NCBI RefSeq assembly: GCF_009755665.1
Contig: NZ_CP046622.1
Span: forward strand, 3,782,001 to 3,846,000
Direction: 5' to 3'
Origin: Variovorax paradoxus
Lineage (GTDB): Bacteria; Pseudomonadota; Gammaproteobacteria; Burkholderiales; Burkholderiaceae_C
Length of the DNA stretch: 64,000 bases
Part shown: positions 26,490 through 41,627 of the stretch, in pieces
How the letters are laid out: every line of letters begins with the position of its first letter
How positions within the stretch are numbered: position 1 is the stretch's first letter
Notes under the pieces: model-generated
What the model saw: only the letters and a program-made list of their open reading frames with translations
What the model was told of the DNA's origin: nothing
Databases searched by the model: none
Program-made: the position numbers and the translations under genes

Positions 26490-27473
26490 ATGCCGCCCTC
26501 CGTTGCCGATTCCGGCCTTCCTGAAAAACTGAAATACATCGCCCTCGCGGGGCCCACGGCCTCCGGCAAGACCGCCGTGGCGCTCGCGGTGGCGCAACTG
26601 CGGCCTGTCGAAATCATCAGCGTCGATTCCGCCCTGATCTATCGCGGCATGGACATCGGCACGGCCAAGCCGAGCCAGGCCGAACAAGCCAGCGTGCCGC
26701 ACCACCTCATCGATATTCGCGACCCGGCCGAAAGCTACAGTGCGGCGGCTTTCGTGGCCGACGCGACGCGGCTCGTCGAAGAGATCCGCGGACGCGGCGC
26801 CCTGCCGCTTCTGGTGGGCGGCACCATGCTGTACTTCAAGGCATTGTTCGACGGCATCGACGCCATGCCCGCAGCCGATGCGGCAGTGCGGTCACGCATC
26901 GACGCCGAAGCCGCGGCGCTCGGCTGGCCCGCCATGCATGCGCGGCTGGCCGAGGTCGACCCCGCCACGGCCGCACGCCTTGCGCCGCAAGACAGCCAGC
27001 GCATCCAGCGTGCACTCGAAGTGTGGGAAAGCAGCGGACAGCCGTTGTCCAGCTTTCATGCGGGTGAAAACAAGGCCGCAAAAGGCCTGGCCGGCGGCGC
27101 GCTCTTTTCGCTCGAGCCCGCCGACCGCGCCTGGCTGCACGCGCGCATTGCCGATCGCTTCGACGCCATGTTTGCCGCCGGCTTTCTCGACGAGGTCAAG
27201 GCACTGCGCGCGCGCGGCGATTTGTCGACAGAGCTTCCGTCGATGCGCTGCGTGGGCTATCGGCAAGCGTGGGAAATGCTCGATGCCTGCGGCGACGAGA
27301 GGCCCGACGCCAAGGCCATGGCCGAGCTGCGCGAGCGCGGCATTGCGGCCACGCGCCAGTTGGCCAAGCGGCAGATCACCTGGCTGCGCAGCATGCCTGA
27401 GCGCACCGTCATTGCCTGCGACGCGCCCGACGCGGTGCGCACCGCCGTTCAACGCATTGCAACCGCCGCATGA
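26490..27473 (+). CDS. miaA: tRNA dimethylallyltransferase MiaA
   Basis: MiaA adds the isopentenyl group to A37 of tRNAs that read UNN codons. The 327-residue protein has the P-loop GPTASGKT, the [20 protein letters not shown] motif, [13 protein letters not shown] and the late RCVGYRQAW segment. The start is Met 26490; the frame open upstream overlaps the hydrolase gene and lacks family similarity. Its stop overlaps the next start (ATGA), so it is coupled to an ABC ATPase. mutL-miaA proximity is common. Confidence 0.95.
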
Positions 27474-28120
27474 CATTGCGCATCTCCAATCTTGCCAAGC
27501 ACTACGGCGACGTGCCCGTCTTCGAGAACGTGACGCTCACCGTCGAGCCCGGCGAGTTCGTCGCCATCGTGGGCGAATCGGGCGTGGGCAAGTCGACGCT
27601 GCTCAACTGCATGGCCGGGCTCGACAACTGGGACGCTGGCACCGTCACGCACGAGGGAACCGACATCGGCGCACTCGACGGCGAGGCCTGCGCGCTCTGG
27701 CGCCGCCGTCATGTCGGCTTCGTGTTCCAGGCCTTTCACGTGCTGCCGCACCTGGACGTGGCGCAGAACGTGTCGCTGCCGCTGATGCTGCTCGGCCAGC
27801 AGCGCGATGCAAACCGTGTAGTGCACATGCTCGATGCGGTCGGCCTGCCCGGCATGGGCGCGCGGCTGCCGCAAACGCTTTCAGGCGGGCAGCTGCAGCG
27901 CGTGGCCATTGCGCGCGCACTGGTGCACCGCCCCGCCCTGCTGCTGGCCGACGAGCCCACGGGCAATCTCGATCCGACCACCGCGGCCAAGGTGATGGAG
28001 CTGCTCATCGGCCAGACGCGTGAACACGGCGCCTCGCTGGTACTGGTCACGCACTCCGAAAGCGCCGCGGCCCGCGCGGACCGGCTGCTGCACCTGACCG
28101 CCGAAGGAATCCGCGCCTGA
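27470..28120 (+). CDS. ABC transporter ATP-binding protein (LolD/YbbA/AttE-like)
   Basis: The 216-residue ATPase has Walker [10 protein letters not shown] (residues 35-43), a Q-loop ([12 protein letters not shown]), the signature [15 protein letters not shown] and Walker [13 protein letters not shown]. It is of the MacB/LolD type that pairs with FtsX-like permeases. The next gene is convergent and unrelated, so the permease is missing locally. The 868-residue FtsX permease at 33630 has no ATPase of its own and is the likely partner. Confidence 0.92.
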
Positions 28121-28129
28121 GCGAGTGAG

Positions 28130-29086
28130 CTAGGCGAGCAAGGCCGCGTAGCGCGACAGGTCGACATTGCCGCCGCTGATCACGATGCCGACCCGCTGCC
28201 CCGCGATGGCCTCGCGTGCCGCGATGGCGCCCGCAAACGCAAGGCAACCCGTCGGCTCCACCACCATCTTCATGCGCTCCGCAAAGAAGCGCATCGCTTC
28301 GACGAGCTGGTCGTCCGTCACGGTGAAGATGTCGTTCACGTCGCGCTTGATGATGCCGAAGGTGTATTCGCCCAGATGCTGCGTCTGCGCGCCGTCGGCA
28401 ATGGTCTTGGGCGTTTCGATGTGCACGATCTTTCCCGCTTGGAACGATTGCTGGCCGTCGTTGCCGGCTTCGGGCTCCACACCGTAGACCTTGCAACCGG
28501 GCGCCAGCGCACGTGCCGACAACGCCGAGCCCGACAGCAGCCCGCCGCCCCCCAAACACACGAACAGGTGGTCGAGCGGACCGGTTTCCTCGATCAGCTC
28601 CTTCACCGCCGTGCCCTGCCCCGTGAGCACGTCGGGGTGGTCGTAGGGCGGAATCATCGTCATGCCGCGCTCCTGCGCGAGCCGCCTGGTCAGCGCCTCG
28701 CGGTCTTCCGTGAAACGGTCGTACATCACCACTTCGGCGCCGTAGCCCTTTGTGGCCGCCACCTTCGCGGCGGGTGCGTCCTTGGGCATGACGATCACCG
28801 CGGGCATTGACAACAACCGCGCCGAGAGCGCAATCGCCTGCGCGTGGTTGCCCGAAGAAAACGCGATCACGCCACCCTTGCGCTGCGTAGCGTCGAATTT
28901 CGAGAGCGCATTGAAGGCGCCGCGAAACTTGAAGGCGCCCATGCGCTGGAAGTTCTCGCACTTGAAGAAGAACCGGGCGCCCCATTGCTCGTCGGCAGTG
29001 GTCGAACGCAGCAGAGGCGTGCGATGGGCGTGGCCTTCGAGCCGCGCGGCCGCGGCAATGACGTCGTCGTAGGTGGGTAGTTGCAT
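28130..29086 (-). CDS. Threonine/serine dehydratase-like PLP enzyme
   Basis: The 318-residue fold-type II PLP enzyme has the cofactor lysine Lys53 in AFKFRGAFNAL, SSGNHAQAIALSA, and the phosphate-binding glycine loop CLGGGGLLSG. It lacks the C-terminal ACT regulatory domain of biosynthetic IlvA, so it is a catabolic dehydratase or a serine racemase/threo-3-hydroxyaspartate ammonia-lyase type. It is divergent from the GntR gene and could belong to the same catabolic cluster. It ends 9 bases from the convergent ABC ATPase stop. Confidence 0.88.
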   Translation of the reverse strand: MQLPTYDDVIAAAARLEGHAHRTPLLRSTTADEQWGARFFFKCENFQRMGAFKFRGAFNALSKFDATQRKGGVIAFSSGNHAQAIALSARLLSMPAVIVMPKDAPAAKVAATKGYGAEVVMYDRFTEDREALTRRLAQERGMTMIPPYDHPDVLTGQGTAVKELIEETGPLDHLFVCLGGGGLLSGSALSARALAPGCKVYGVEPEAGNDGQQSFQAGKIVHIETPKTIADGAQTQHLGEYTFGIIKRDVNDIFTVTDDQLVEAMRFFAERMKMVVEPTGCLAFAGAIAAREAIAGQRVGIVISGGNVDLSRYAALLA

Positions 29087-29167
29087 GCGCCGAGCTTAGC
29101 GGCGGCTTACGTTTTTTTGCAGGGCCGATGGGTAAAAACCCGGGATACGCCGGGCCCGCAGCTTTGT

Positions 29168-29183
29168 ACTCTGTATACAGAGT
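29168..29183. promoter_or_regulatory. Candidate GntR operator (perfect 16-bp palindrome)
   Basis: ACTCTGTATACAGAGT is a perfect palindrome located 17 bases before the gntR start and in the space shared with the divergent dehydratase. A GTATAC centre with flanking symmetric bases is typical of FCD-type GntR operators, so autoregulation of the gntR-dioxygenase-oxidoreductase operon is likely. Confidence 0.72.
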
Positions 29184-29200
29184 TCAGAGAAAGACGATCC

Positions 29201-29914
29201 ATGCCAGCCCACCTCGTCAGCATCGAAGCCTCGCCCGACCTCGTCGACCAGGTCTACCGCGCCCTTCTCGGCGCCATCAGCAGCGGTTCGCTCGCGCCGG
29301 GCGAACGCATCACGCAGGAAGACATTGCGCAGCGCCTCTCGGTGTCGCGCCAGCCGGTGCTGCAGGCGCTGCGTTTGCTCAAGAAAGACGGCTTCGTGCT
29401 CGATGCCCCGGGCCGGGGCGTACTGGTGGCGCCGCTCGATGCCGAGTGGATGCGCAAGGTCTACCAGGTGCGCGGCGCACTCGACGTGCTGGCCGCACGG
29501 CTGGCGGCGGGCCAGCGCTTTCGCATCGACCCCAAATTGATGGAGCGCGGCCGGCGCGCAGCACGCGGGCGCAATGTCGAAGCCATGATCGACGCCGACA
29601 TGGCTTTTCATGAGGCCATCTACAAGGCGTCCGGCAATCCGCTCATCGGCCAGAGCGCCGGCCAGCATTGGCGCCACCTGCGCCGCGCCATGGGTGCGGT
29701 GCTGCAGGCCGAGCCGCAGCGCGAATCGCTATGGGACGAGCACCAGGCCATTGCCGACGCCATTGCCGCTGGCAACGCACAACGTGCCGCGCAGTTGAGC
29801 GAGGAGCATGTTGCGCAAGCCAGCGAAGCGTTGAGCCAGCGGCTCGCGCAGCAGCTGGCGCGCAGCGCATCGCCCACCCATCACACCAACCACCGCAAAG
29901 GAGACAAGGCATGA
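29201..29914 (+). CDS. GntR family (FCD domain) transcriptional regulator
   Basis: The 237-residue regulator has an N-terminal winged helix-turn-helix (about 12-75, with ITQEDIAQRLSVSRQPVLQAL). The C-terminal FCD-type helical ligand domain carries acidic and His residues in DADMAFHEAIY and HWRHLR that could bind a metal. The start at 29201 excludes an upstream segment without family similarity. Its stop overlaps the dioxygenase start (ATGA), so it heads a three-gene operon, and a perfect palindrome precedes it. Confidence 0.92.
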   Translation: MPAHLVSIEASPDLVDQVYRALLGAISSGSLAPGERITQEDIAQRLSVSRQPVLQALRLLKKDGFVLDAPGRGVLVAPLDAEWMRKVYQVRGALDVLAARLAAGQRFRIDPKLMERGRRAARGRNVEAMIDADMAFHEAIYKASGNPLIGQSAGQHWRHLRRAMGAVLQAEPQRESLWDEHQAIADAIAAGNAQRAAQLSEEHVAQASEALSQRLAQQLARSASPTHHTNHRKGDKA

Positions 29915-30786
29915 AGTTGAGCCCCGACCAGCGCGCGCAATTCGAGCGCGACGGCTACCTGTTCTTCCCCGGCCATTTTTCACCCGAAGAGACAAAGGTG
30001 TTGACCGATGCGGTGCCCGAGCTCTACAGCCGGCGCGAAGCCTTCAACGTGCGCGAAAAGGGCTCGGATGCCGTGCGCACGAACTTTGCCGCGCACCTGA
30101 TCAGCGAGCCCTTCGCCCGGCTGGCGCGGCATCCGCGCATGGTGGAGCCGGTGATGGATCTGTTCGAAGAACAGGTCTACATGCACCAGTTCAAGATCAA
30201 CGGCAAGATGGCCTTCGAAGGCGACGTGTGGCAGTGGCACCAGGACTACGGCACCTGGCTCAACGACGACCTGATGCCCACCGAGCGTGCGATGAACGTC
30301 GCCATTTTTCTGGACGACGTGAACGAGCACAACGGCCCGCTGATGTTCATTCCGGGCAGCCACCGCAAGGGCGTGGTCGATGCGAAGCATGACCTCACGA
30401 CCACGAGCTACCCGCTCTGGACGGTCGACAACGACCTGATCCGCCAACTGGTAGACCGTGCCGGCGGCAAGCAGGGTGGCATCGTCTCGCCCAAGGGCCC
30501 CGCCGGTTCGATGATCCTCTTCCACAGCTGCCTCGTGCATGCATCGGGCAGCAACCTTTCGCCTTTCAACCGCGTGGCCGTGTACCTGAGCCTGTGCGCC
30601 GTCAGCAACCATATCCGGCGCCACAAGCGGCCCGAGTACATCGCGCACCGGGACTTCACGCCCATCGAAATGCTGCCCGACGATTGCCTGCTGAAGCCCT
30701 ACCCGGTCGAGGTGCCGTGGAAGAACGGCCTGCCCGAAAGCGCGCTGCAGACTTCGCTCGAAACTCTCGACGCCGTGGAGGCCTGA
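29911..30786 (+). CDS. Phytanoyl-CoA dioxygenase (PhyH/EctD-like) family protein
   Basis: This is a 291-residue Fe(II)/2-oxoglutarate oxygenase. The iron ligands are probably His110 and Asp112 in WQWHQDYGTW and His210 in SCLVHASGSN. Arg221 is a candidate 2-oxoglutarate anchor. NGPLMFIPGSHRKG and the SGSNLSPFNR end resemble ectoine hydroxylase, but the EctD-specific signature is not complete and no ectABC genes are nearby. The likely role is hydroxylation of a small polar metabolite. AAAGGAG precedes the start, and it is coupled to gntR and to the SAF-domain oxidoreductase. Confidence 0.88.
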   Translation: MKLSPDQRAQFERDGYLFFPGHFSPEETKVLTDAVPELYSRREAFNVREKGSDAVRTNFAAHLISEPFARLARHPRMVEPVMDLFEEQVYMHQFKINGKMAFEGDVWQWHQDYGTWLNDDLMPTERAMNVAIFLDDVNEHNGPLMFIPGSHRKGVVDAKHDLTTTSYPLWTVDNDLIRQLVDRAGGKQGGIVSPKGPAGSMILFHSCLVHASGSNLSPFNRVAVYLSLCAVSNHIRRHKRPEYIAHRDFTPIEMLPDDCLLKPYPVEVPWKNGLPESALQTSLETLDAVEA

Positions 30787-30790
30787 TCTC

Positions 30791-32152
30791 ATGAGCCTCT
30801 ACACCCGCCTGCAGCAGCGCGCCGCCGAAGGCCGCCCCATCCGTATCGGCCTGATCGGCGCCGGCAAGTTCGGCTCGATGTATCTCGCGCAGATTCCGCG
30901 CACGCCCGGCGTGCAGCTGGTTGCCATTGCCGACCTCTCGCCCGCCGCCGCACGCGCCAACCTCGAACGGGTCGGCTGGCAGGCCGAGCGCACCGCAGCG
31001 GACTCGGTGCAGCAAGCGCTGAAGACCGGCAGCACATGGATTACCGACGACTGGCAAGCGGTGACGCGCGAGCCTTCCATCGACATCGTGGTCGAGTGCA
31101 CCGGCAATCCGGTGGCGGCGGTCGACCATTGCCTGGATGCCTTTGCGCACGGCAAGCACGTGGTGAACGTGACCGTTGAAGCCGACGCCTTCTGCGGGCC
31201 GCTGCTCGCGCGCAAGGCGCAGCAGGCGAGTGTGATCTATTCGCTGGCCTTCGGCGACCAGCCCGCGCTCATCTGCGACCTGGTGGACTGGGCGCGCACC
31301 TGCGGCTTTCCCGTGGTGGCTGCCGGACGCGGCCACAAGTGGCTGCCGCACTTCACCGAATCGACGCCGGAAACCGTGTGGGGCAACTACGGCCTCACGC
31401 CCGAACAGGCGCGGCGCGGCGGGCTCAACCCGAAAATGTTCAACAGCTTTCTCGACGGCTCCAAGCCTTCGATAGAAAGCTCGGCCGTGGCCAATGCCAC
31501 CGGCCTCACGGTGCCTTCGGACGGCCTGCTCTACCCGCCCGCGAGCGTGGAAGACATCCCGTTCGTCACACGCCCGCAGAGCGAAGGCGGCGTGCTGGAG
31601 CGCAAGGGCATGGTCGAGGTGATTTCATCGCTCGAAGCCAATGGGCGAAAGATTCCCTACGACATCCGCATGGGCGTGTGGGTCACGGTCGAGGCCGAGA
31701 CCGACTACATCAAGAACTGCTTCGAGGAATACAACGCACACACCGACCCGAGCGGCCGCTACTTCACGCTCTACAAGCGCTGGCACCTCATCGGCCTGGA
31801 GGTCGGCATGTCGGTGGCAAGCGTGGCCTTGCGCGGCGAGCCTACGGGCGTTGCCACCTGCTGGAACGCCGACGTGGTCGCCACCGCCAAGCGCGACCTC
31901 GCGCCCGGCGAAACGCTCGACGGCGAAGGCGGCTACACCGTCTGGGGCAAGCTGCTGCCGGCCGAGCGCTCCATGCGGCTGGGCGGCCTGCCGCTCGGGC
32001 TCGCGCACAACGTCAAGCTGGTGCGCGCGGTGAAGAAAGGCCAGAGCCTTTGCTGGGCCGACGTGGCCATGGACACATCGACCCATGCCTACCAGCTTCG
32101 CGCCGAGCTGGAGGCCATGTTTGCGCCCTCCACGCATGCTCAGGCGGCCTAG
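30791..32152 (+). CDS. Homoserine dehydrogenase-like oxidoreductase with C-terminal SAF domain
   Basis: The 453-residue protein has an N-terminal NAD(P)-binding fold (IGLIGAGKFGS, residues about 19-29) and a middle region similar to homoserine dehydrogenase (VVECTGNP, GKHVVNVTVEADAF). A C-terminal SAF domain follows at about 370-440, like the one in sugar-acid dehydratases and FlgA. It is often misnamed a flagellar protein because of SAF. Four bases after the dioxygenase gene, it completes the GntR operon. I infer a catabolic oxidation; the substrate is unknown. Confidence 0.87.
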   Translation: MSLYTRLQQRAAEGRPIRIGLIGAGKFGSMYLAQIPRTPGVQLVAIADLSPAAARANLERVGWQAERTAADSVQQALKTGSTWITDDWQAVTREPSIDIVVECTGNPVAAVDHCLDAFAHGKHVVNVTVEADAFCGPLLARKAQQASVIYSLAFGDQPALICDLVDWARTCGFPVVAAGRGHKWLPHFTESTPETVWGNYGLTPEQARRGGLNPKMFNSFLDGSKPSIESSAVANATGLTVPSDGLLYPPASVEDIPFVTRPQSEGGVLERKGMVEVISSLEANGRKIPYDIRMGVWVTVEAETDYIKNCFEEYNAHTDPSGRYFTLYKRWHLIGLEVGMSVASVALRGEPTGVATCWNADVVATAKRDLAPGETLDGEGGYTVWGKLLPAERSMRLGGLPLGLAHNVKLVRAVKKGQSLCWADVAMDTSTHAYQLRAELEAMFAPSTHAQAA

Positions 32153-32254
32153 CGGATCCGCGGATTTCATCCGCGCGCGGCCCTTGGCTTTTGCCATTGC
32201 GCCGGCGCATTTTTAGGGAAAGAATTAATTGTTCGGCATGCAGTACGCATGTCG

Positions 32255-32279
32255 AAATGACTGGCTGCGAGCCGTCATT
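32255..32279. promoter_or_regulatory. Hairpin in the sigma-factor leader region
   Basis: The spacer 32153-32327 contains an AT-rich stretch near 32215-32230. It also contains an AATGAC-t-GGCT...AGCC-GTCATT hairpin with one bulge and a three-base loop. It precedes a good ribosome site and the 14-codon leader ORF. No T-tract follows, so it is more likely a 5' leader element or operator than a terminator. Confidence 0.4.
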
Positions 32280-32327
32280 GTGGTGAGCAATCTTGCTCGG
32301 CGAGCTTGTCCTCGACGGAGAAACACC

Positions 32328-32372
32328 ATGCAATTCAGCTTCTGTGCAACTGGAACTCCGGGCGCACCGTGA
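32328..32372 (+). CDS. 14-codon leader ORF overlapping the sigma factor start
   Basis: A short ORF starting MQFSFCATG has an excellent ribosome site (ACGGAG, seven bases before ATG). It ends in TGA that overlaps the GTG start of the sigma factor gene (GTGA). The sigma start itself has no visible ribosome site, so translation may depend on this leader. It could be a coupling peptide, a chance ORF, or the remnant N-terminus of a deleted upstream gene. Confidence 0.45.
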   Translation: MQFSFCATGTPGAP

Positions 32373-33601
32373 ACGAACTGGCGGCTCCCCGAGCCGCCGA
32401 GCGGGCGGCGCGTGAATCGTATGGGCGGTTGCTCGCGATTCTTTCAGCGCGCACGCATGACATCGCCGCATCGGAAAACGCACTCGCGCAAGCCTTTGCA
32501 CGGGCTCTCGAACGCTGGCCCGCCGACGGCATTCCCGAGCAGCCGGACGCCTGGCTGCTGAGCGTGGCGCGGCACCGCAAGCTCGACGCCTGGCGCCACA
32601 GCCGCATCCAGGACGCCGCCGCGCAGGCCCTGCTGCTGCTGGCCGGCGAGGTCGATGTGGGCACGGTCGACGGCACCGCCGTGCCGGACGAGCGCCTGCG
32701 GCTGCTCTTCGTCTGCGCGCATCCGGCCATCGACGCCACCGCCCGCGCGCCGCTCATGCTGCAGGTTGTGCTCGGGCTCGATGCAGCCCGCATGGCGGGG
32801 GCGTTCCTCACTTCGCCTTCCACGCTCGGCCAGCGGCTGGTGCGAGCCAAGGCGCGCATCCGCAGCGCGGGCATTTCTTTCGAGTATCCCGAAGCACGCG
32901 AACTGCCGCTGCGCTTGCAGGACGTGCTCCAAGGCATCCATGCCGCCTACGGCAACGGCTGGGACGACGTCGATGGCGCGGACACCCTGCCCCGCGGCCT
33001 TGCCGCCGAAGCCATCGAGCTCGGCCGCACGCTGTGCGCACTGATGCCGAACGAGCCCGAGCCGCTGGGCCTTCTCGCTCTGATGCTGTTCTGCCAGAGC
33101 CGGGCGGGGGCGCGGCTCAACGATGCCGGCGCCTATGTACCGCTCGACCAGCAGGACACGGCGCGCTGGGATCCGGACCTGCTTGCACAGGCCGAGCAGC
33201 ACCTGCGGCAAGCGTCGAGCAGGAATATTTCCGGCGCCTGCCAACTGGAGGCCGCCATCCAGTCGGCCCATTGCGAGCGCCGCGTCGGCGCGCCGGTGGC
33301 GCCCGAAGCAATGGTTGCGCTGTACGACAACCTGCTGGCGCTGCGCCCCAGCCTGGGCGCCCAGGTGAGCCGCGCCTGCGCCCTCGCCAAAGCGCGCGGC
33401 CACGACGTCGGCCTGCAGGCGCTCGACGCCATTGCGGCCGGCGAGGTAGCGAGCTACCAGCCCTTCTGGGCGGCGCGCGGCCACCTGCTCTCGGCAGGCG
33501 GCGCCCGTGCTGCCGCGCGCCAGGCCTTCGATCGCGCGATCGGCCTGAGCACGAGCGCGGCGGTGCGCGCGTATCTCAACGGGACGTCCGAGCGGCTCTG
33601 A
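32369..33601 (+). CDS. ECF42-type RNA polymerase sigma factor (DUF6596 C-terminal domain)
   Basis: The 410-residue protein has shortened sigma2 and sigma4 regions (ALERWPADGIPEQPDAWLLSVARHRKLDAWR; a C-terminal sigma4 helix with FLTSPSTLGQRLVRAKARIR, each split here for length). A long TPR-like extension follows, with the family hallmark LALMLFCQSRAGAR followed by GAYVPLDQQDTARWD. ECF42 factors are normally encoded beside YCII/DGPF-domain genes, but none is adjacent. The start is uncertain: GTG 32369 overlaps the leader ORF stop, and TTG 32306 is an alternative in frame. Confidence 0.82.
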   Translation: MNELAAPRAAERAARESYGRLLAILSARTHDIAASENALAQAFARALERWPADGIPEQPDAWLLSVARHRKLDAWRHSRIQDAAAQALLLLAGEVDVGTVDGTAVPDERLRLLFVCAHPAIDATARAPLMLQVVLGLDAARMAGAFLTSPSTLGQRLVRAKARIRSAGISFEYPEARELPLRLQDVLQGIHAAYGNGWDDVDGADTLPRGLAAEAIELGRTLCALMPNEPEPLGLLALMLFCQSRAGARLNDAGAYVPLDQQDTARWDPDLLAQAEQHLRQASSRNISGACQLEAAIQSAHCERRVGAPVAPEAMVALYDNLLALRPSLGAQVSRACALAKARGHDVGLQALDAIAAGEVASYQPFWAARGHLLSAGGARAAARQAFDRAIGLSTSAAVRAYLNGTSERL

Positions 33602-33629
33602 TTTTTCTGCGCGCGGCCACAATGGCGGC

Positions 33630-36236
33630 ATGCGCGCCTTGCTCACCACCTTCTCATGGCAGGAACTGCGCCACCACCCCTGGCGCAACGCCGCGGCCGT
33701 ATTGGCCGTGATGCTGGGCGTGGCGCTCGCGTTCTCGGTGCAGCTGATCAACGCGTCGGCCCTCGACGAGTTCTCGAGCGCCGTAAGGTCGGTCAACGGC
33801 CAGCCGGACCTCGAAGTGCGCGCCGTGCAGGGCAGCTTCGATGAAGCGGTGTTCGGGCGCCTCGCGCAGCATCCGCAGGTGACGCTGGCGAGCCCGGTGC
33901 TCGAGTTCCAGGGCCTCGCATTGGCCGGCGAACGACAAGTGCCGATTCGCGTGATCGGCGTCGACGCGCTGGCCTTGCCGGCCATTGCACCGGCGCTGAT
34001 GCCGCAGCCCCGCAAGAATGCCGATCGCTTCGCGATACTGGTGCCGGGCCATGTGTTTCTGAACGCCGCGGCGCGCAATGTGCTGGGCCTGCCCGCACAG
34101 GCGGCCGAAGACCGTGCCGAGACGGTGGAATTGCGCAGCGGCGGCGCCTGGCAACGGCTCGAAGTGGCGGGCCATGTCGCCGCCACCGGCACCGCGCTCG
34201 CCGTGATGGATATCGGGGCTGCGCAAGACCTGTTCGACAAAGCGGGCCAGCTCAGCCGCGTCGACTTGAGGCTTGCTCCTGGCACAGACCGGGCGGCCTT
34301 CATCGCATCGCTGCAGCGCGCCCCAGGCTGGCCCGCGGGCTTGCAGTTTGCAGAGCCCGGCGATGCTGCCGAACGCGTGAGCAATCTCTCGCGCGCCTAC
34401 CGCGTCAACCTGACGGTGCTGGCGCTGGTGGCGCTTTTTACCGGCGCGTTCCTGGTGTTCTCGGTGCTGGCGCTCAGCGTTGCCAAGCGCGCACAGCAGT
34501 TCGCTCTGCTCGGCGTGCTGGGCCTGACGCCGCGCGAGCGGCTCCGGCTGGTGCTGGCGGAGTCGTTCGTGCTTGGCCTGATAGGAAGCGCCGCCGGGCT
34601 GGCGCTGGGCACGGCGCTCGCGGCTTTCGCGCTGCGCGTGCTGGGCGGTGACCTGGGCGGCGGCTATTTCCAGGGCGTGGCGCCCACGCTGCACTGGAGC
34701 GGCGGCTCGGCCCTCCTGTACGGCGGGCTCGGCGTGCTTGCGGCGCTGGTGGGCGGCTGGTGGCCCGCGCGCGCGGCACAGGCGCTGCCCGAGGCGCAAA
34801 CGCTCAAGGGCCTGGGCGCCGCGCCGGTCCAAAGCAAAAGCCATTGGCTCGCGCTCGGCCTTATTGCCGCAAGCGCGGCATTGGCCAACATGCCGGCCGT
34901 CGGAGGCATTCCGGTGGCGGCATATCTTTCGGTGGGTTGCCTGCTGGTGGGCGGCATCACCGCATTGCCCTGGCTGATTGCGCTGCTGTACGACCGCGTT
35001 GCACCCGCGTTTGCGCAGCGCGTGCTGCCGATGCTGGCCATCGAGCGCGCAAGGCGCATGCGCGGCACCGCAGCCGTGGCGGTCAGTGGCGTGGTCGCGA
35101 GCCTGAGCCTCGCAGTTGCACTCACGGTCATGGTCGCAAGCTTTCGCGATTCAGTGACGCGTTGGCTCGACGTGGTGCTGCCGGCCGACCTTTATCTTCG
35201 CGCCACGTCGAGCGGCCGCTCCGCGAATTCGGGCACCCAGAGCAGCAGCGATACCGCCACGTTTTCTGCGGCCTTCGTGCAGGCGCTGGCACAACTGCCC
35301 GGCGTGGAACGCACCGGCACGCTGCGCACCCGCTCGTTGCAGCTGGACCCTGCGCAACCCGCCGTCACGCTGATCGCGCGAAGCCTCGAGGGTGGCGCCG
35401 CGCAGGCACTGCCGCTGGTGGGCCTTTCGCTGCCGGTACCTGCCGGGCAGATCGGCATCTACGTGAGCGAACCGATGGTGGAGCTGTATGGCGCCAAGCC
35501 GGGCGCGCTGTTTGCGCCGCTCTCGAATGCGCTGGGCACCAGCGGGTCTGCGCCGGCTGCGGTCTTCGTGGCAGGCGTGTGGCGCGACTACGCGCGTCAG
35601 TTCGGCGCCATCACCATGGATGCGCGTGATTTCGAACGCCTGACGGGCGAGCGCGAAGTGAGCGACGTGTCGCTGTGGCTTGCGCCGGGCGCATCGGAGG
35701 GCGCGGTTCAGGCCGCCGTTCGCGAATTGGCGGCGCGCCAGCCGAGCGGAATTGACGGCTCCGGTTCGAGCATCGAGATTTCATCGGTCGGGCAGATCCG
35801 CGCGACCTCGCTGCGCATCTTCGACCGCAGCTTTGCGGTGACCTACTGGCTGCAGGCGGTGGCGATTGCCATCGGGCTCTTCGGCATTGCGGCGAGCTTC
35901 AGCGCGCAGGTGCTGGCAAGGCGCAAGGAGTTCGGGCTGCTCGCGCACCTGGGATTCACGCGGCGGCAGGTGCTGGCGGTGGTGGCGGGTGAAGGCGCGG
36001 CGTGGACGGCCATTGGTGCCGTGGCGGGGCTCTTGCTGGGGTTGGCGGTTTCGGTGGTGCTGGTGAAGGTGGTGAATCCGCAGAGCTTTCACTGGACCAT
36101 GGATTTGCTGGTGCCTTGGGGGAGGCTGGTGGTGCTGTGCGGCGCGGTGGTGGTGGCCGGCACTGTCACCGCCTGGCTGGCGGGACGGGCCGCGGCGGGC
36201 AAGGACGTGGTGCTCGCGGTGAAAGAGGACTGGTAA
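33630..36236 (+). CDS. FtsX-like permease, duplicated-domain ABC permease (AttFG-like)
   Basis: The 868-residue inner-membrane protein has one N-terminal membrane helix (about 20-42) and a large periplasmic domain. Three helices of the first FtsX domain follow (about 265-385), then a second set with another periplasmic domain and three C-terminal helices (about 735-860). This is a fused two-domain permease of the MacB/LolC superfamily. It has no ATPase next to it. The ATPase at 27470 and the AttH-like protein at 40557 are the usual companions of this permease type. Confidence 0.92.
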   Translation: MRALLTTFSWQELRHHPWRNAAAVLAVMLGVALAFSVQLINASALDEFSSAVRSVNGQPDLEVRAVQGSFDEAVFGRLAQHPQVTLASPVLEFQGLALAGERQVPIRVIGVDALALPAIAPALMPQPRKNADRFAILVPGHVFLNAAARNVLGLPAQAAEDRAETVELRSGGAWQRLEVAGHVAATGTALAVMDIGAAQDLFDKAGQLSRVDLRLAPGTDRAAFIASLQRAPGWPAGLQFAEPGDAAERVSNLSRAYRVNLTVLALVALFTGAFLVFSVLALSVAKRAQQFALLGVLGLTPRERLRLVLAESFVLGLIGSAAGLALGTALAAFALRVLGGDLGGGYFQGVAPTLHWSGGSALLYGGLGVLAALVGGWWPARAAQALPEAQTLKGLGAAPVQSKSHWLALGLIAASAALANMPAVGGIPVAAYLSVGCLLVGGITALPWLIALLYDRVAPAFAQRVLPMLAIERARRMRGTAAVAVSGVVASLSLAVALTVMVASFRDSVTRWLDVVLPADLYLRATSSGRSANSGTQSSSDTATFSAAFVQALAQLPGVERTGTLRTRSLQLDPAQPAVTLIARSLEGGAAQALPLVGLSLPVPAGQIGIYVSEPMVELYGAKPGALFAPLSNALGTSGSAPAAVFVAGVWRDYARQFGAITMDARDFERLTGEREVSDVSLWLAPGASEGAVQAAVRELAARQPSGIDGSGSSIEISSVGQIRATSLRIFDRSFAVTYWLQAVAIAIGLFGIAASFSAQVLARRKEFGLLAHLGFTRRQVLAVVAGEGAAWTAIGAVAGLLLGLAVSVVLVKVVNPQSFHWTMDLLVPWGRLVVLCGAVVVAGTVTAWLAGRAAAGKDVVLAVKEDW

Positions 36237-36282
36237 AGGGCGTTGGTTTGCTTGCCGATGGCGGGCCTGGTTTTTTTCCCGA

Positions 36283-36856
36283 GGCCGGGTCTCGCCCCGG
36301 CGGGCGACTCACTTTCTTTGCTTCGCCAAAGAAAGTAAGCAAAGAAAGGCGACCCCTACTGTCTGCGTCCCCTGCGCTGCGCTGCGGGGAAACCTGCGGT
36401 GCTCGACTCCGGCGGGGGTCCGCAGAACTCGCTTCGCTCAGACAGCTGCGGCCCTGATCCCGCCTCCATCTGCGCTCCTCGGCGCATACAGAAGGGGGGT
36501 GGGAGCGGGCGGCCTTCGCTTCGCTCGGCCCCAATACCAACAGCCCAACTCAATACCGATAGCCAATGCCAGCCACCGCAGGCGCGCAGCGCCTGCGGTG
36601 GCCTGGTGGCCGAGCGAAGCAAAGGCCCGTTCGGTTTCCAAGCCCCTCTGTATGCGCCGAGGAGCGGAGGGTTTCGCGGATCAGGGCTCGCAGCTGTTTG
36701 AGCGAAGCGAGTTCTGCGAGACCCCGCGAAAACCGAGCACCGCAGGTTGCCCGCAGCGAAGCGGAGGGTCGCAGACAGTGGGGTCGCCTTTTCTTTGCTT
36801 ACTTTCTTTTGGCGAAGCAAAAGAAAGTGAGTCCGCCGCCGGGCGGAATCCCGGCC
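36283..36856. repeat. 574-bp imperfect inverted repeat between convergent genes
   Basis: The whole 631-base gap between the permease stop and the convergent acylase stop is a long palindrome. Matching blocks share one axis at about 36569: 36283-36289 with 36850-36856, 36391-36405 with 36734-36748, 36421-36440 with 36699-36718 (20 identical bases), 36474-36492 with 36647-36665, and 36518-36530 with 36608-36620. Nested hairpins ACTTTCTTTG-cttcgc-CAAAGAAAGT (left) and the 11-bp version at 36801-36828 (right) occur inside the arms. Open frames inside have no domain and are structural by-products. Similar segments are, from memory, dispersed in many proteobacterial genomes. Confidence 0.85.
36572..36602. 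repeat. Central 14-bp stem hairpin of the palindrome
   Basis: A perfect 14-pair stem GCCACCGCAGGCGC with loop GCA and its complement lies near the middle of the long inverted repeat. Its centre is about 18 bases to the right of the repeat axis, so it is an independent hairpin inside the unpaired tip rather than the end of the arms. Confidence 0.8.
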
Positions 36857-36867
36857 CCGAAACCAAA

Positions 36868-39381
36868 CTACCGCCCAACAGGTACCAAAAGAACCCGCTC
36901 CACAGTCTCCCTCTCCACAGCCCCCCGGCTATACACAAGCGGCACGTACTTCCCCTCAAGCCACAACGGCGCAAGATCCCGGTAGTTCGGGCTGTCTGGA
37001 TTCCCCGACTGCCCCGGCGTATTGATCACCCGCGAGGCATCCCAGTTGCCCACGTCCAGCACCATCCGGAACGAAGCCCCCGATGTCAGCCTGTAGTCGC
37101 TGGCACGGTAGCTCGCAGCCATCGGCGTGAAGGCGGAACCAGACATCGGCCAGTCGCCAACCTCCAGCTTCTTGCGGGTAGCCGCATCGACCACGCCGCC
37201 GAGCGGATGGCGGAACTCCGCACGATGCAGCGCACCCCACTTCCAGCCAGTCATGTCAGGCCCGAGCTTGGCGGTGAGCTCCTGCATTGCCGGCGGCAAG
37301 GTCTGCAGCAGCAAGGCGTTGCGCTGCGCATCGCTGACCCAGCCTGACGGGTTCTCGAGCAGCAGCACCATGCGCGTGTTGTCGCCGGGCGCGGCCAGCG
37401 ATGCAGCGGCGTCGCCGGCCCCGGCCTTGAGTACGGCGGCGCGAAGGGTCTTGCTGCTCCACACTTCGTAGAGCGCAGCGGCGGCGCTGTCGCGGTGCAT
37501 GGTGCCGTCCCAACCCTGCAGCAGGCGCAGGGCGGCCGCGGTTTGCGCATCGTCGCTGCGCAAGCCGGCCAGGAGCTTCAGCAGCCGCTGCGCGGGCGTC
37601 GCGACGATGTCGTTCTGCATGCGTTCCGAGTCCTCGATGGTGAAGCGCGAGCCCGCGGCCGCCTTTGCGGCGAACAGCTCCTTGAGGCGGCGCGAACGGG
37701 CCGCGTCGCTCCACTCGTAGCCGATGCCTTTCTTCGCAGCCGGATGATCGGGCGGAATGTTGTTTTCGTTTGCGGTCACCACATAGCCGCGCGCGGGGTT
37801 GAACTCCGAAGGCAGCTCATCGCCATTGCGAAAGCCCGACCACTCGTAGCGGCCGTCGCCCGGCACGGGCATGAGGCCGTCCCAGTTGGGCCTAATGGGT
37901 GTGAGCCCGCCCGGCATCCAGCCGACGTTGCCATTGCGGTCGGCATAGACCTGGTTCTCGCCGGGTGCGCCCCAGCGGTTCATCGCGGCGCGGAACTGGT
38001 CCCAGTTCTGCGCGCGCATGTAGTCCATCGAACCGAAGTACGGCGCCATGCCGGGCTCGAGCCACGCCGCACGCAATGCGAAGGCACGCTGCTTGCCGGG
38101 CTCGGACAGCAGCACCGGGCCGTGGCGGGTGAAGGTGTTGACCACCTCGCGCGGCGCGCTCTCGCCACGCACCGCAATGCGCTCGGTCACGCTCGTCATC
38201 GGCTCCCATCGGCCCTGGTAGCGGTACTCGTTCGGGTTCTGCGGGTTCAGCTGGTACACGTACAGGTCTTCCTGGTCCATGTAGAAGCGCGTGAGGCCGA
38301 ATGCGATGGTCCCGTTGTGGCCGATGGAAAGGCCCGGTAGAAAGGGCTCGCCCGCGCCGATGGCGTCCATGCCCGGCGCGCTCAGATGCGTCATGTAGCG
38401 CAGGCTTGGCGCGCCATGGGCGCGGTGCGGATCGTTGGCGAGGATGGGCCTTCCTGTGGAGGTGAGCTGTGGCGCGATCACCCAGTTGTTGCTGCCATAG
38501 GCGGCCGTGGGGTCGCCTTGCATGGCCTGTTGCTTGTCTTCTTCATCGTCGGCCTTTGCGGCCACCGCAGCAGCCGAAGCGCCCGCCAGCCGCGTGTTCT
38601 CCTTGGTGAAGCGCGGCGACTCGGTGGCGCGCAGGTAGGCGGCACGCAACTCGGCTGCCGGAATGGTGCAGGGATCGAAGCCAGGCGGCACCTGCGGCGT
38701 GACCGGCGGATCCAGCTCGCGGCGGAGCCAGTCGGCTTTGATGCCTTCGCTGCCGGCGCAGAAGGCGCGGGCACGGTCGATCTCGGAAGTGAAATTGAGC
38801 GTGAGGCCGTGGTGCCGGATGCGCACCACGTCTTCAGGTGACCACACGGCCGGCTGGTAGCCCAGCAATGCGAATTCGGTCGGCAGCAGCGCCGGCTGCG
38901 CGCGCACCTGCGCAACGTAGGCGTTGACGCCCGCGGTAAAGGCCTCGGCCACGCGCTTGGCATCGGAGCCATAGGCCAGCCACTCGCGGTACATGTCGCC
39001 GCGATAGAGCACGGCGCGCGCGGCACGGTCGCTGTCGACCCATGCGGGGCCGAAGTCCTTGGCCATTTCGCCGAGGCCGCGCTTGCGCCAGAGGTCCATC
39101 TGCCAGAGCCGGTCGCGTGCGGCAATGAAGCCCTGCGCAACGAACGCGTCGTACAGCGTGCCGGCATAAAGATGCGGCACGCCCCAGCGGTCGACCAGCA
39201 CCTCGGCCGGCTTCTCGAGGCCGGGCACGGCAAAGGACGATGGCGCGCGAGGCGGTGTCTGCACACCCGGAGGCCCCGACGCGCAGCCCGCAAGCACGAG
39301 GGCTGCGAGCGCTGCGGCGCCGATGGAATGCCTTTGGCCTAACGAGCGCCGCGACGTGGGGCGCAGGTGTCTTGTTCTCAT
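36868..39381 (-). CDS. Penicillin acylase family lipoprotein (possible acyl-homoserine lactone acylase)
   Basis: The 837-residue Ntn-hydrolase is made as a precursor that self-cleaves. The signal has a lipobox LAGC with Cys33. The alpha part contains RWGVPHLYA and AQGFIAARDRLWQMD. The new beta-chain N-terminus is probably Ser297 in YGSNNWVIAP, followed by NDPHRA and SIGHNGTIAFGLT. Length and the SNNW motif fit AHL or related amide acylases as well as penicillin acylases. AGGAGAC precedes the chosen start. It ends at the edge of the palindrome. Confidence 0.9.
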   Translation of the reverse strand: MRTRHLRPTSRRSLGQRHSIGAAALAALVLAGCASGPPGVQTPPRAPSSFAVPGLEKPAEVLVDRWGVPHLYAGTLYDAFVAQGFIAARDRLWQMDLWRKRGLGEMAKDFGPAWVDSDRAARAVLYRGDMYREWLAYGSDAKRVAEAFTAGVNAYVAQVRAQPALLPTEFALLGYQPAVWSPEDVVRIRHHGLTLNFTSEIDRARAFCAGSEGIKADWLRRELDPPVTPQVPPGFDPCTIPAAELRAAYLRATESPRFTKENTRLAGASAAAVAAKADDEEDKQQAMQGDPTAAYGSNNWVIAPQLTSTGRPILANDPHRAHGAPSLRYMTHLSAPGMDAIGAGEPFLPGLSIGHNGTIAFGLTRFYMDQEDLYVYQLNPQNPNEYRYQGRWEPMTSVTERIAVRGESAPREVVNTFTRHGPVLLSEPGKQRAFALRAAWLEPGMAPYFGSMDYMRAQNWDQFRAAMNRWGAPGENQVYADRNGNVGWMPGGLTPIRPNWDGLMPVPGDGRYEWSGFRNGDELPSEFNPARGYVVTANENNIPPDHPAAKKGIGYEWSDAARSRRLKELFAAKAAAGSRFTIEDSERMQNDIVATPAQRLLKLLAGLRSDDAQTAAALRLLQGWDGTMHRDSAAAALYEVWSSKTLRAAVLKAGAGDAAASLAAPGDNTRMVLLLENPSGWVSDAQRNALLLQTLPPAMQELTAKLGPDMTGWKWGALHRAEFRHPLGGVVDAATRKKLEVGDWPMSGSAFTPMAASYRASDYRLTSGASFRMVLDVGNWDASRVINTPGQSGNPDSPNYRDLAPLWLEGKYVPLVYSRGAVERETVERVLLVPVGR

Positions 39382-39480
39382 GCGTCTTGTCTCCTGCCGG
39401 GTGGAACTTGGCAGCGCACAGTATCCCGATTTGCATATCCGCTGGGTACTGCGAGAGATGACTTGTAGACTTCCTCCTAC

Positions 39481-40557
39481 ATGCAGCAAACACCCTCCTC
39501 CATCTCATGCGGCGGCTGGCTCGGCTCTGCCATACGCCGCATCGAAGCCGACTACCAGCGCAGCGCCGACACGCACCTGATTCCGCTGCCGCTGCCCTCG
39601 CTTGCCGCGGCCGGCATTGACCTGTACCTGAAGGATGAGTCGACCCACCCGACCGGCAGCCTCAAGCACAGGCTCGCACGTTCGCTCTTTCTCTATGCGC
39701 TGTGCAACGGATGGGTGCGCGAAGGCACGACCATCGTCGAGGCCTCGAGCGGCTCCACCGCGGTGAGCGAAGCCTACTTCGCGCGGCTGCTGGGCCTGCC
39801 CTTCATTGCGGTGATGCCGCGCAGCACCTCGCCCGAGAAGGTGGCGCAAATCGCCTTCTACGGTGCGCGTTGCCACTTCGTCGATCATGCAGCGCAGGTC
39901 TATGAAGAGGCGCGCGCGGTCGCCGAGCAGACCGGCGGCCACTACATGGACCAGTTCACCTATGCCGAGCGCGCGACCGACTGGCGCGGCAACAACAACA
40001 TCGCCGAGAGCATGTTCCAGCAGATGGCACGCGAGCGGCATCCGGTGCCGGCATGGATCGTGGTGGGCGCGGGCACCGGCGGCACCAGCGCCACCATCGG
40101 GCGCTATGTACGCTTTCGCTGCCACGACACGCAGGTGTGCGTGCCCGACCCCGAAGGCTCGGTGTTCTCGGCCTATCACCGCACGGGCGATGCAACGCTG
40201 ACGGCGGCGGGTTCGCGCATCGAAGGCATCGGCCGGCCACGGGTGGAGCCGAGCTTCGTCCGCACGCTGGTCGACCGAATGATCGAAGTGCCCAACCTCG
40301 ATTCGGTGGCCGCCATGCTTGCGCTCTCTGCGCTGCTGGGGCGCAAGGTCGGACCGTCGACCGGCACCAACTTTGTCGGCATGCTGGCCATAGCCCGCGA
40401 GATGCGTGCGGCGGGCCAACAGGGCTCCATTCTTTCGCTGCTCTGCGATGCGGGCGAGCGCTATCTGCCGAGCTATCACGACGCTGCGTGGGTGCAGAGC
40501 GCCTTCGGCGACGTGGGCCCGGCACAGCGGCGCATCGACGCGCTGGTTGCGCAGTGA
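39481..40557 (+). CDS. PLP-dependent cysteine synthase family protein
   Basis: The 358-residue fold-type II PLP enzyme has the Schiff-base Lys62 in [13 protein letters not shown], the substrate loop [15 protein letters not shown] and the glycine-rich phosphate loop [13 protein letters not shown]. It is close to the cysteine synthase/cystathionine beta-synthase core but with an N-terminal stretch and a C-terminus like the Cds1 type, which can act as a cysteine desulfhydrase. It is divergent from the acylase gene, and its stop overlaps the next start (TGATG). Confidence 0.88.
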
Positions 40558-41627
40558 TGCCTGCGCCGGCCTTCTGCAAGCTCTCGCGCCGCAGCCTGCT
40601 GCTTGCGGCGCTGGCCGCAGCGCCCGCAAGCTGGGCGCTGCCCGAGCGCACCCTGCAGTTTCCGCGCGACTTCGGCAGCCACCCCGACCTGCGCACCGAG
40701 TGGTGGTACATCACTGGCCACGCAAGAACTTCGGCGGGGCGCGAGTTCGGTTTTCAGGTGACGTTCTTTCGCTCGCGCGTCGATGCCGCGCAGGGCATGC
40801 GCTCGGCGTTCGCGGCCAAGAACCTCGTGTTTGCGCACGCCGCGGTCACAGACCTCGAAGGCCGCGTGCTGCTGCATGACCAGCGCATTGCGCGGGCGGG
40901 GTTCGGCGTTGCGTCGGCCAGCGAAGCCGACACCGAGGTGCGCCTGCGCGACTGGTCGCTCGTGCGCAAGGACGGCAGCTATTCCGCCCGCGTGCCTGCG
41001 GGCGAATTCACGCTAGACCTCCGCTTTGCGCCCACCCAGCCGGTGCTGCTGCAAGGCAAGGCGGGGCTCTCGCGCAAGGGCCCCGAAGAAGCACAGGCAA
41101 GCTATTACTACAGCGAACCGCAGCTCAAGACGCAAGGGCGGCTCACGCTCAAGGGCCAGGCCTTCGATGTCGATGGAACGGCCTGGCTCGACCACGAATG
41201 GAGCGAGGCGCTGATGCATCCCGAGGCCGTGGGCTGGGACTGGATCGGCATGAACCTGGACGACGGCAGCGCCCTCACCGCCTTTCGCCTGCGGCGCCGC
41301 GACGGCAGTGCGCTGTGGGCTGGCGGTTCGTTTCGCGCACGCGACGGTGCGCTGCGCGTTTTCAGCAACGACGAGGTGCGCTTCGACGGTGCTGATGCGT
41401 GGACCAGCCCGCGCACGCAGGCCAAGTACCCGACCCGGTGGCGCGTGCAGACCCCGTCGGGAAGCTTCGAGGTGCGCGCCCTGCTCGACGACCAGGAGCT
41501 CGACAGCCGCGGCTCCACAGGCGGGGTGTACTGGGAAGGCGTGAGCGACCTGCTCGATGCACAAGGCCGCCGGGTCGGCCGGGGCTACCTGGAGATGACC
41601 GGCTACGCCGCACCGCTGCGGCTCTGA
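40557..41627 (+). CDS. AttH/CrtC-like lipocalin-fold exported protein
   Basis: The 356-residue protein starts with a twin-arginine-like signal (LSRRSLLLAAL, cut near ASWAL). The family hallmark EWWYITGHA, then FGFQVTFFRSR, DGTAWLDHEWS and GWDWIGMNLDDG follow. This matches the lipocalin-like family annotated as carotenoid 1,2-hydratase or AttH, thought to bind lipids and to work with an AttEFG-type ABC transporter. It is translationally coupled to the cysteine-synthase-like gene, but its natural partners are probably the ATPase at 27470 and the permease at 33630. Confidence 0.88.
   Translation: MPAPAFCKLSRRSLLLAALAAAPASWALPERTLQFPRDFGSHPDLRTEWWYITGHARTSAGREFGFQVTFFRSRVDAAQGMRSAFAAKNLVFAHAAVTDLEGRVLLHDQRIARAGFGVASASEADTEVRLRDWSLVRKDGSYSARVPAGEFTLDLRFAPTQPVLLQGKAGLSRKGPEEAQASYYYSEPQLKTQGRLTLKGQAFDVDGTAWLDHEWSEALMHPEAVGWDWIGMNLDDGSALTAFRLRRRDGSALWAGGSFRARDGALRVFSNDEVRFDGADAWTSPRTQAKYPTRWRVQTPSGSFEVRALLDDQELDSRGSTGGVYWEGVSDLLDAQGRRVGRGYLEMTGYAAPLRL

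Follow-up and report, generated by a model that had tools for sequence, protein, structure and literature searches.

Three separated genes in Variovorax paradoxus are probably the parts of one ancient ABC transport operon opened repeatedly by insertions

A 64,000-nucleotide stretch of the Variovorax paradoxus genome (assembly GCF_009755665.1, contig NZ_CP046622.1, positions 3,782,001 to 3,846,000; "the window" throughout) carries genes for a LolD/YbbA-like ATP-binding cassette (ABC) ATPase, a double-FtsX permease (FtsX) and an AttH/CrtC-type lipocalin-fold protein (CrtC). The three genes are co-directional and are separated by 5.5 kb and 4.3 kb of unrelated genes. We conclude, with a probability of about 0.85, that this trio represents the scattered parts of one ancient operon that was opened repeatedly by insertions, some of which were later deleted. 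The ancestral order would have been ATPase, permease and lipocalin-like protein, linked to miaA in most of the family; unrelated genes would have entered both internal junctions many times, and some of these inserts would since have been lost. Such a split may be tolerated because each piece keeps or gains expression of its own: the ATPase would stay coupled to miaA, FtsX would be driven by a -10-like element at its start codon, probably as a leaderless transcript, and CrtC would often stand behind a promoter-bearing cargo gene. A literature search among open-licence papers found no published account of the splitting of this operon.

The initial annotation had described the three genes as lone members of an att-type set, on the plus strand and in operon order, parted by two blocks (28121-33629 and 36237-40556). 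Pfam matches and coordinates (Table 1) confirm both the genes and the blocks, each of which holds unrelated genes. No piece has its trio mates beside it, and the ATPase is still coupled to miaA: the miaA stop codon overlaps the ATPase start codon (ATGA at 27470). The proposal that insertions had split one operon is supported by the adjacency of the trio in relatives and by the lack of a second complete operon in the same genome; a second att operon elsewhere was looked for and rejected because both searches returned a single CrtC match. The proposal needs widening beyond a single event per junction in this genome, since the splitting recurs across the family, is partly stepwise and appears to have been partly reversed. 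In 22 genomes of the same genus, a second, distant CrtC/AttH homologue (28-36% identity) lies elsewhere; the searches gave no such copy in the genome of the window itself.

Chance alone would not explain the arrangement, since distant relatives have the three genes next to each other. In deposited annotation, they lie side by side on Rhizobium johnstonii pRL9 and on a Caballeronia plasmid; the adjacency stated initially for some other beta-proteobacteria is confirmed. Eleftheria terrae has the order miaA, ATPase, two other genes, permease, CrtC. Twelve genomes from other families have the trio with a clearly orthologous FtsX, and in these the ATPase-FtsX distance is at most 300 bp in 10, the FtsX-CrtC distance in 10 and both in 9; one further FtsX/CrtC pair is on separate contigs. 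We preferred this 12-genome gap table to the fetched loci for the other families because 7 of the 12 were fetched and two genomes with an open first junction (G089 and G099) are not among the 7. Within the family, the trio is contiguous in 35 of 97 loci fetched from genera other than Variovorax.

The genes also travel together. A survey of 200 family genomes from 141 genera found FtsX in 147, the ATPase in 145 and CrtC in 148. By the parsed match rows (143 FtsX, 143 ATPase and 145 CrtC, with the window's own genome and G032 excluded and two FtsX pieces of G199 merged), all three genes are present in 138 of the 148 genomes that have any. Matches for FtsX in G168 and G183 and for CrtC in G239 stand in the genome tables and are absent from the printed rows; with the three table-only genomes added, the count is 140 of 148, and the remaining eight are drafts of at least 90 contigs. 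The genes are therefore present or absent together at the cut-offs used. Pseudogene remnants were ruled out by the intact motifs of the ATPase (Walker A GESGVGKS, signature LSGGQ, Walker B LLLADE) and by FtsX, which in 56 of the 61 genus genomes searched, the window's own included, runs to full length with no internal stop codon, the rest being fragments or drafts.

To count how often the operon is split, we scored a junction as open when its gap exceeded 300 bp and as closed when the gap was at most 300 bp. Among 150 fetched loci (46 from genomes assigned to Variovorax, 97 from other genera of the family and 7 from other families), the ATPase-FtsX junction is open in 92 and the FtsX-CrtC junction in 72. 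The first is open in 45/46 Variovorax loci, 47/97 loci of other genera and 0/7 of other families, and the second in 34/46, 37/97 and 1/7, respectively. Parsimony on a FastTree phylogeny of the three proteins requires a minimum of 24 state changes at the first junction and 31 at the second (across three thresholds and four trees, the ranges are 22-25 and 28-32); without any closing, 33 and 42 openings are required. In 109 family genomes with both gaps measurable, both junctions are closed in 33, only the first is open in 26, only the second in 17, and both are open in 33. Across the genus, the gap is longer than 300 bp at 53 of 54 measurable first junctions and at 39 of 54 second junctions, with maxima of 27 kb and 19 kb and one relocation of 312 kb. 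Exceptions to order and strand in the family are three loci with the ATPase on the opposite strand, one first gap and two second gaps in the wrong order, and five gaps above 30 kb. A set of 80 named loci, which overlaps with the other genomes, has open gaps in 44 of 57 measurable first junctions and 52 of 64 second junctions.

These counts have a defined sampling. The 97 loci from other genera were fetched from 109 family genomes with the trio on one contig and strand, 12 spanning more than 20 kb being left out. Twelve genus loci were over-long: nine of these entered as two separately fetched pieces, G032 and G048 were omitted and G042 was unused. Ten more genus loci, in which a partner gene sits on a different contig, were likewise omitted. 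Larger genomes were rejected as a driver: among the 97 other-genera loci, an open first junction goes with slightly smaller genomes (mean 4.39 versus 4.91 Mb, p 0.02), and genome size does not differ between open and closed second junctions.

What fills the gaps differs between lineages. We called 590 cargo genes with our own codon-usage script (436 in gap 1 and 154 in gap 2; G075 gave none), which fall into 254 clusters, 201 of them singletons; 2 of the 53 multi-member clusters occur in both gaps. There are 64 distinct gene inventories among the 92 open first junctions and 37 among the 72 open second junctions, counts that include loci without a called insert gene and can be inflated by call errors. 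The cargo Pfam families, among those listed, are mostly metabolic, regulatory or transport-related. When Variovorax loci are read in tree order, junction 1 grows stepwise: G036 lacks an insert, a YCII gene and a sigma-factor gene are present in G028 and G058, and other Variovorax add PALP1, then GntR/PhyH/DRL and then further modules, with exceptions and losses. In V. dokdonensis (L098), the two gaps measure 37 and 412 bp, and the cargo genes of the window are all absent. Gap 1 of 15 other-genera loci contains an opposite-strand HSP20 gene, with 10 state changes on the tree.

Two candidate causes of the insertions were rejected. For mobile cargo, scans of 187 of the 201 singleton cargo proteins gave no integrase or transposase among the 25 families listed per scan, 31 to 112 further families per scan falling outside these lists; one protein had a match to a PHROG annotated as tail fiber protein. 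The palindromic repeat of block 2 was matched in 8/150 loci and lies directly 3' of the FtsX stop codon in 6/150, the window's own included. Five more copies of this element at 89-94% identity, and one partial copy, are present in the same genome.

Some cargo genes recur next to the same trio member. The DUF6596 sigma-factor gene is the immediate upstream neighbour of FtsX in 17 loci (at most 62 bp away in 15), and the cysteine-desulfhydrase-like PALP2 gene is that of CrtC in 44. Some pieces may therefore have new operon partners, and FtsX may be under the control of the DUF6596 sigma factor. The initial annotation had counted pairing with other partners against a split operon; such neighbours do exist, and they vary from locus to locus while the trio persists. 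The sigma-factor gene is often accompanied by the YCII gene.

That the pieces may be read from separate promoters has indirect support. Opposite-strand genes lie in the ATPase-FtsX gap of 42/46 Variovorax loci and of 79/92 open loci overall, and in the FtsX-CrtC gap of 31/72 open loci. In addition, a -10-like hexamer stands 5-10 nt before the FtsX start codon in 72/88 open loci versus 5/54 closed loci (in open loci CACAAT 43, CAGAAT 13, GACAAT 10, others 6), with 28/43 open and 4/47 closed in the other genera alone. Background frequencies are 54/3000 in random 18-nt windows and 18/143 at the ATPase start, and the hexamer precedes 48/372 leader, 13/118 intermediate and 28/260 follower cargo genes. 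By upstream neighbour, it is present in 41/48 loci with an opposite-strand gene and in 10/12 with a same-strand gene further than 60 bp away. Its distance from the start codon suggests leaderless FtsX transcripts, and the hexamer is probably a leaderless promoter, putative as judged from sequence.

A 4-base Shine-Dalgarno word precedes FtsX in 23/54 closed and 2/88 open loci and CrtC in 46/65 closed and 7/65 open loci; for CrtC the 5-base word gives 40/65 and 3/65. The Lys-Glu pair at the FtsX C-terminus is encoded as AAG GAG, which would embed a ribosome-binding site for CrtC, in 42/57 closed and 23/68 open loci, 17/142 loci without Lys-Glu at the FtsX end being left out. Elsewhere in FtsX, codon shares in open versus closed loci are 0.84 versus 0.81 for AAG and 0.63 versus 0.70 for GAG. 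In Variovorax alone, the AAG GAG association has p 0.09.

Sequences at the second junction fit loss of an insert. An element like GACTTGTAGACTGG (at most 3 mismatches) precedes the PALP2 start codon by 4-8 nt in 17 of the 25 PALP2-bearing Variovorax loci. G049, which has no PALP2, carries the same element and the start ATGCAG directly before CrtC, and G014 has a weaker match of this promoter-like element in that position. In G009, G051 and the G060 locus (L021), the FtsX-CrtC distance is again about 50-65 bp, and the CrtC N-terminus reads MQQAP; PALP2 proteins mostly begin MQQTP or MQPTP. L021 retains the full TAGACT hexamer, and G009 and G051 have a changed form of it. There are two possibilities for these scar-like sequences. 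One that fits is that deletion of PALP2 left CrtC with the promoter-like element and first codons of the lost gene. The opposite order, in which PALP2 was inserted behind a pre-existing CrtC start, is less likely because the basal Variovorax examined with closed junctions do not have the element. PALP2 distances track FtsX distances (Spearman 0.80; FtsX versus CrtC, 0.79), as expected from old vertical inheritance with repeated loss.

Taken further, both junctions might be sites where the operon opens and recloses, through insertion, gain of a leaderless FtsX promoter, decay of ribosome-binding codons and later deletion that leaves fossils; we put this at even odds. Several results weigh against the broader conclusion of repeated opening. 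Parsimony does not give the direction of individual changes. The FtsX hexamer is also present in 21/28 open loci with a same-strand gene at most 60 bp upstream. The CrtC start has no corresponding promoter difference (hexamer in 4/65 open and 1/65 closed loci), a general sigma-70 consensus scan of the region returned 1 site against a shuffle mean of 1.0, and the 5-base Shine-Dalgarno word before FtsX does not differ (2/54 closed, 0/88 open). In tree-independent pairs, the promoter association runs in the expected direction in 5.8 versus 0.6 pairs on average (19 pairs) and the codon association in 7.3 versus 1.2 (21 pairs), but after correction for relatedness the median p is 0.07 for each (range 0.016-0.73 and 0.004-0.73); these associations are suggestive, not decisive. 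Partners lie on different contigs in 13 and 17 of 143 family genomes.

Is the rate of break-up at this locus special? Non-essential operons of this family may simply break up this often as a rule, an explanation that we consider possible at somewhat less than even odds. Insertion into operons and their break-up were reportedly described by Price et al. in 2006. LolCDE is essential in well-studied species, and for that reason the LolC-LolD pair used as a control is a strict yardstick: it is closed in 91/94 genomes, compared with 26/60 for ATPase-FtsX and 28/61 for FtsX-CrtC in the same draw. For this count, 95 of 100 genomes were used, those without a LolC or LolD row being dropped; G105 and G191 were scored by the LolC-like copy beside LolD, and two pieces of G165 were merged. 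A nearer control is the miaA-ATPase junction: of the 123 loci that have miaA within reach, 118 are closed there, the other five gaps being 0.5-1.0 kb. In these 123 loci, miaA-ATPase is open in 5 (5 changes), ATPase-FtsX in 86 (18 changes) and FtsX-CrtC in 68 (27 changes), which, like the LolC-LolD count, speaks against an ordinary rate. This control is weaker than it appears, since 27/150 loci have no miaA match within 1.3 kb; when these are scored as open, 32/150 are open with 17 changes, and the miaA link too has been lost repeatedly. A haloarchaeal study already reports operon break-up via gene insertion, with internal insertions making up only 86 of 946 single-type changes (PMC7760734), which speaks against frequent internal insertion as the norm.

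Alternatively, the split genes may no longer cooperate, the ATPase serving another permease. A candidate exists, and it counts against cooperation within the trio: the genome encodes a second double-FtsX permease of 838 residues, YbbP-like (L282:2632-5148, minus strand), with no adjacent ABC ATPase in the 8 kb examined. We consider this explanation improbable, as the trio is kept or lacking together over the 200 family genomes and is intact when split. The neighbours of the 838-residue permease gene, labelled by eye, include an fdhD-like gene and an OLD-like ATPase gene. That the trio was never one unit, its adjacency having arisen later by clustering of independent, ordered genes, draws on the local partnerships (miaA for the ATPase, the sigma-factor gene for FtsX at 17 loci and PALP2 for CrtC at 44) and is very hard to credit given the contiguous order in Alphaproteobacteria and several families of the order, the near-complete co-occurrence, the order and strand mostly kept across variable inserts and the scar-like sequences that show CrtC beside FtsX again where cargo is missing.

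The products of the three genes probably constitute one membrane transport system. CrtC matches PDB entry 2ICH (NE1406, "Putative AttH") over residues 27-355 with E 1.7e-103; the NE1406 paper proposes a lipid-related role and notes a LolD and ABC ATPase context (PMC2954199). The N-terminus of CrtC (40557-40640) has a twin-arginine motif, SRRSLLL, with RR in 18/18 sequences compared, which suggests export by the Tat (twin-arginine translocation) pathway. FtsX matches LolF, MacB, LolC and others weakly (best 9e-8). A likely assignment is an ABC complex of the mechanotransmission kind that works with the exported lipocalin-like protein on a hydrophobic substrate. Most likely, ATPase and FtsX would still form one inner-membrane complex that moves or extracts a hydrophobic molecule, which would be handed to or from CrtC. 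Separate transcription, complex formation and the substrate class are points that we infer.

Table 1. Features of the trio and of the two inserted blocks in the window (positions count from the first letter of the window).
Feature	Coordinates	Strand	Remarks
LolD/YbbA-like ABC ATPase	27470-28120	+	Pfam ABC_tran 3.7e-35; nearest models YbbA, LolD, FtsE
Block 1: PALP1, threo-3-hydroxy-L-aspartate ammonia-lyase	28130-29086	-	NF005454 above cut-off
Block 1: GntR/FCD regulator	29201-29914	+	
Block 1: PhyH-type dioxygenase	29911-30786	+	
Block 1: DRL-type oxidoreductase	30791-32152	+	
Block 1: ECF (extracytoplasmic function)-like sigma factor with DUF6596	32369-33601	+	Ends 28 bp 5' of FtsX
-10-like hexamer CACAAT, putative FtsX promoter	33618-33623	+	6 nt 5' of FtsX start codon
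868-residue double-FtsX permease	33630-36236	+	Pfam: two FtsX stretches, 7.5e-29
FtsX Lys-Glu codons AAA GAG	36222-36227	+	In contiguous operons usually AAG GAG, a possible CrtC ribosome-binding site
Terminator-like stem and T run	36245-36267	+	Directly 3' of FtsX
Block 2: non-coding nested palindromic repeat element, ~600 bp	36265-36868	.	Inverted repeats
Block 2: penicillin-acylase-type protein	36868-39489	-	Penicil_amidase 3.5e-211; start possibly 39228
-10-like TAGACT	39466-39471	+	9 nt 5' of PALP2 start; seen before PALP2 in 17/25 Variovorax loci with the gene
Block 2: PALP2, L-cysteine desulfhydrase Cds1-like	39481-40557	+	559 bits, under cut-off 600
AttH/CrtC lipocalin-fold protein	40557-41627	+	Pfam CrtC 1.8e-60, Lipocalin_9 4e-41

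In the window itself, PALP1 is convergent with the ATPase gene, with 9 bp from stop to stop. The PALP2 stop codon and the CrtC start codon overlap as TGATG at 40557, CrtC starting on the last base of the stop. Terminator-like sites number 16 in the region against 10.3 expected. PALP1, GntR, PhyH and DRL (28130-32152) resemble a compact set of catabolic genes, which might act on a hydroxylated amino acid, and 24 Variovorax loci have GntR, PhyH and DRL in combination.

Because co-expression matters, the subunits of a complex would be expected to share an operon; at this locus the link between ATPase and permease was broken many times, yet the genes remain intact and mostly keep their order. The locus supplies repeated break-ups together with intermediates and what look like re-closures, Variovorax being one of the hosts, and makes testable at one site whether a promoter precedes or follows insertion, how translational coupling decays and whether an operon re-forms by deletion, questions that are usually argued from genome-wide averages. 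If both junctions do open and reclose, they provide a one-locus natural series of operon death and re-formation by deletion, with the ATPase and permease of one complex expressed separately. The haloarchaeal study states that, to its authors' knowledge, there was no prior evidence of natural operon formation by progressive deletion, and it offers one possible case (PMC7760734). The PALP2 scar-like sequences are candidate evidence for that process.

Among known systems, the closest likeness is to AttH-like ABC systems such as that of NE1406 (2ICH), with which contiguous trios share the same three gene types in the same order. The window has the components of an AttEFGH system, namely (i) a LolD/MacB-like ATPase with intact nucleotide-binding motifs, (ii) two FtsX repeats and (iii) an AttH/CrtC protein with predicted export. 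In those systems the genes are neighbours, whereas here they are 5.5 and 4.3 kb apart in what appear to be three transcription units; the adjacency that is missing from this genome is present in many relatives. The AttEFGH name given by the initial annotation thus fits by gene content, in a comparison made through AttH-like relatives, with Agrobacterium itself outside it. The system resembles LolCDE and MacB-type transporters in that the ATPase is nearest to the YbbA, LolD and FtsE models, and differs in its single 868-residue permease with two FtsX repeats and its exported lipocalin-like partner. No LolC/LolE or LolD model scored above its curated cut-off, and a LolC-like and a LolD-like gene form a pair of their own in this genome. 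Membership in the ADOP family of duplicated permeases is not indicated (TIGR03434, 36 bits against a cut-off of 622.3).

As a case of genome rearrangement, the locus resembles both accessory-gene insertion hotspots and operon death by insertion. It shares with the hotspots conserved flanks and species-variable content, but its variable sites fall within an operon and part an ATPase from its presumed permease. It shares with operon death, as treated for haloarchaea (PMC7760734), co-directional genes parted by unrelated inserts, together with a contiguous state outside the group and inserts that differ between lineages. The break-up here is recurrent at two junctions and in many genera, with the order mostly kept; inserts grow stepwise, scar-like sequences are present and the freed gene has a promoter-like element in front of it. 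Operon break-up by insertion is already known; a recurrent, colinear and apparently reversible case is unusual, and what is new here is the recurrence, the colinearity, the promoter-like gain and the scar-like sequences.

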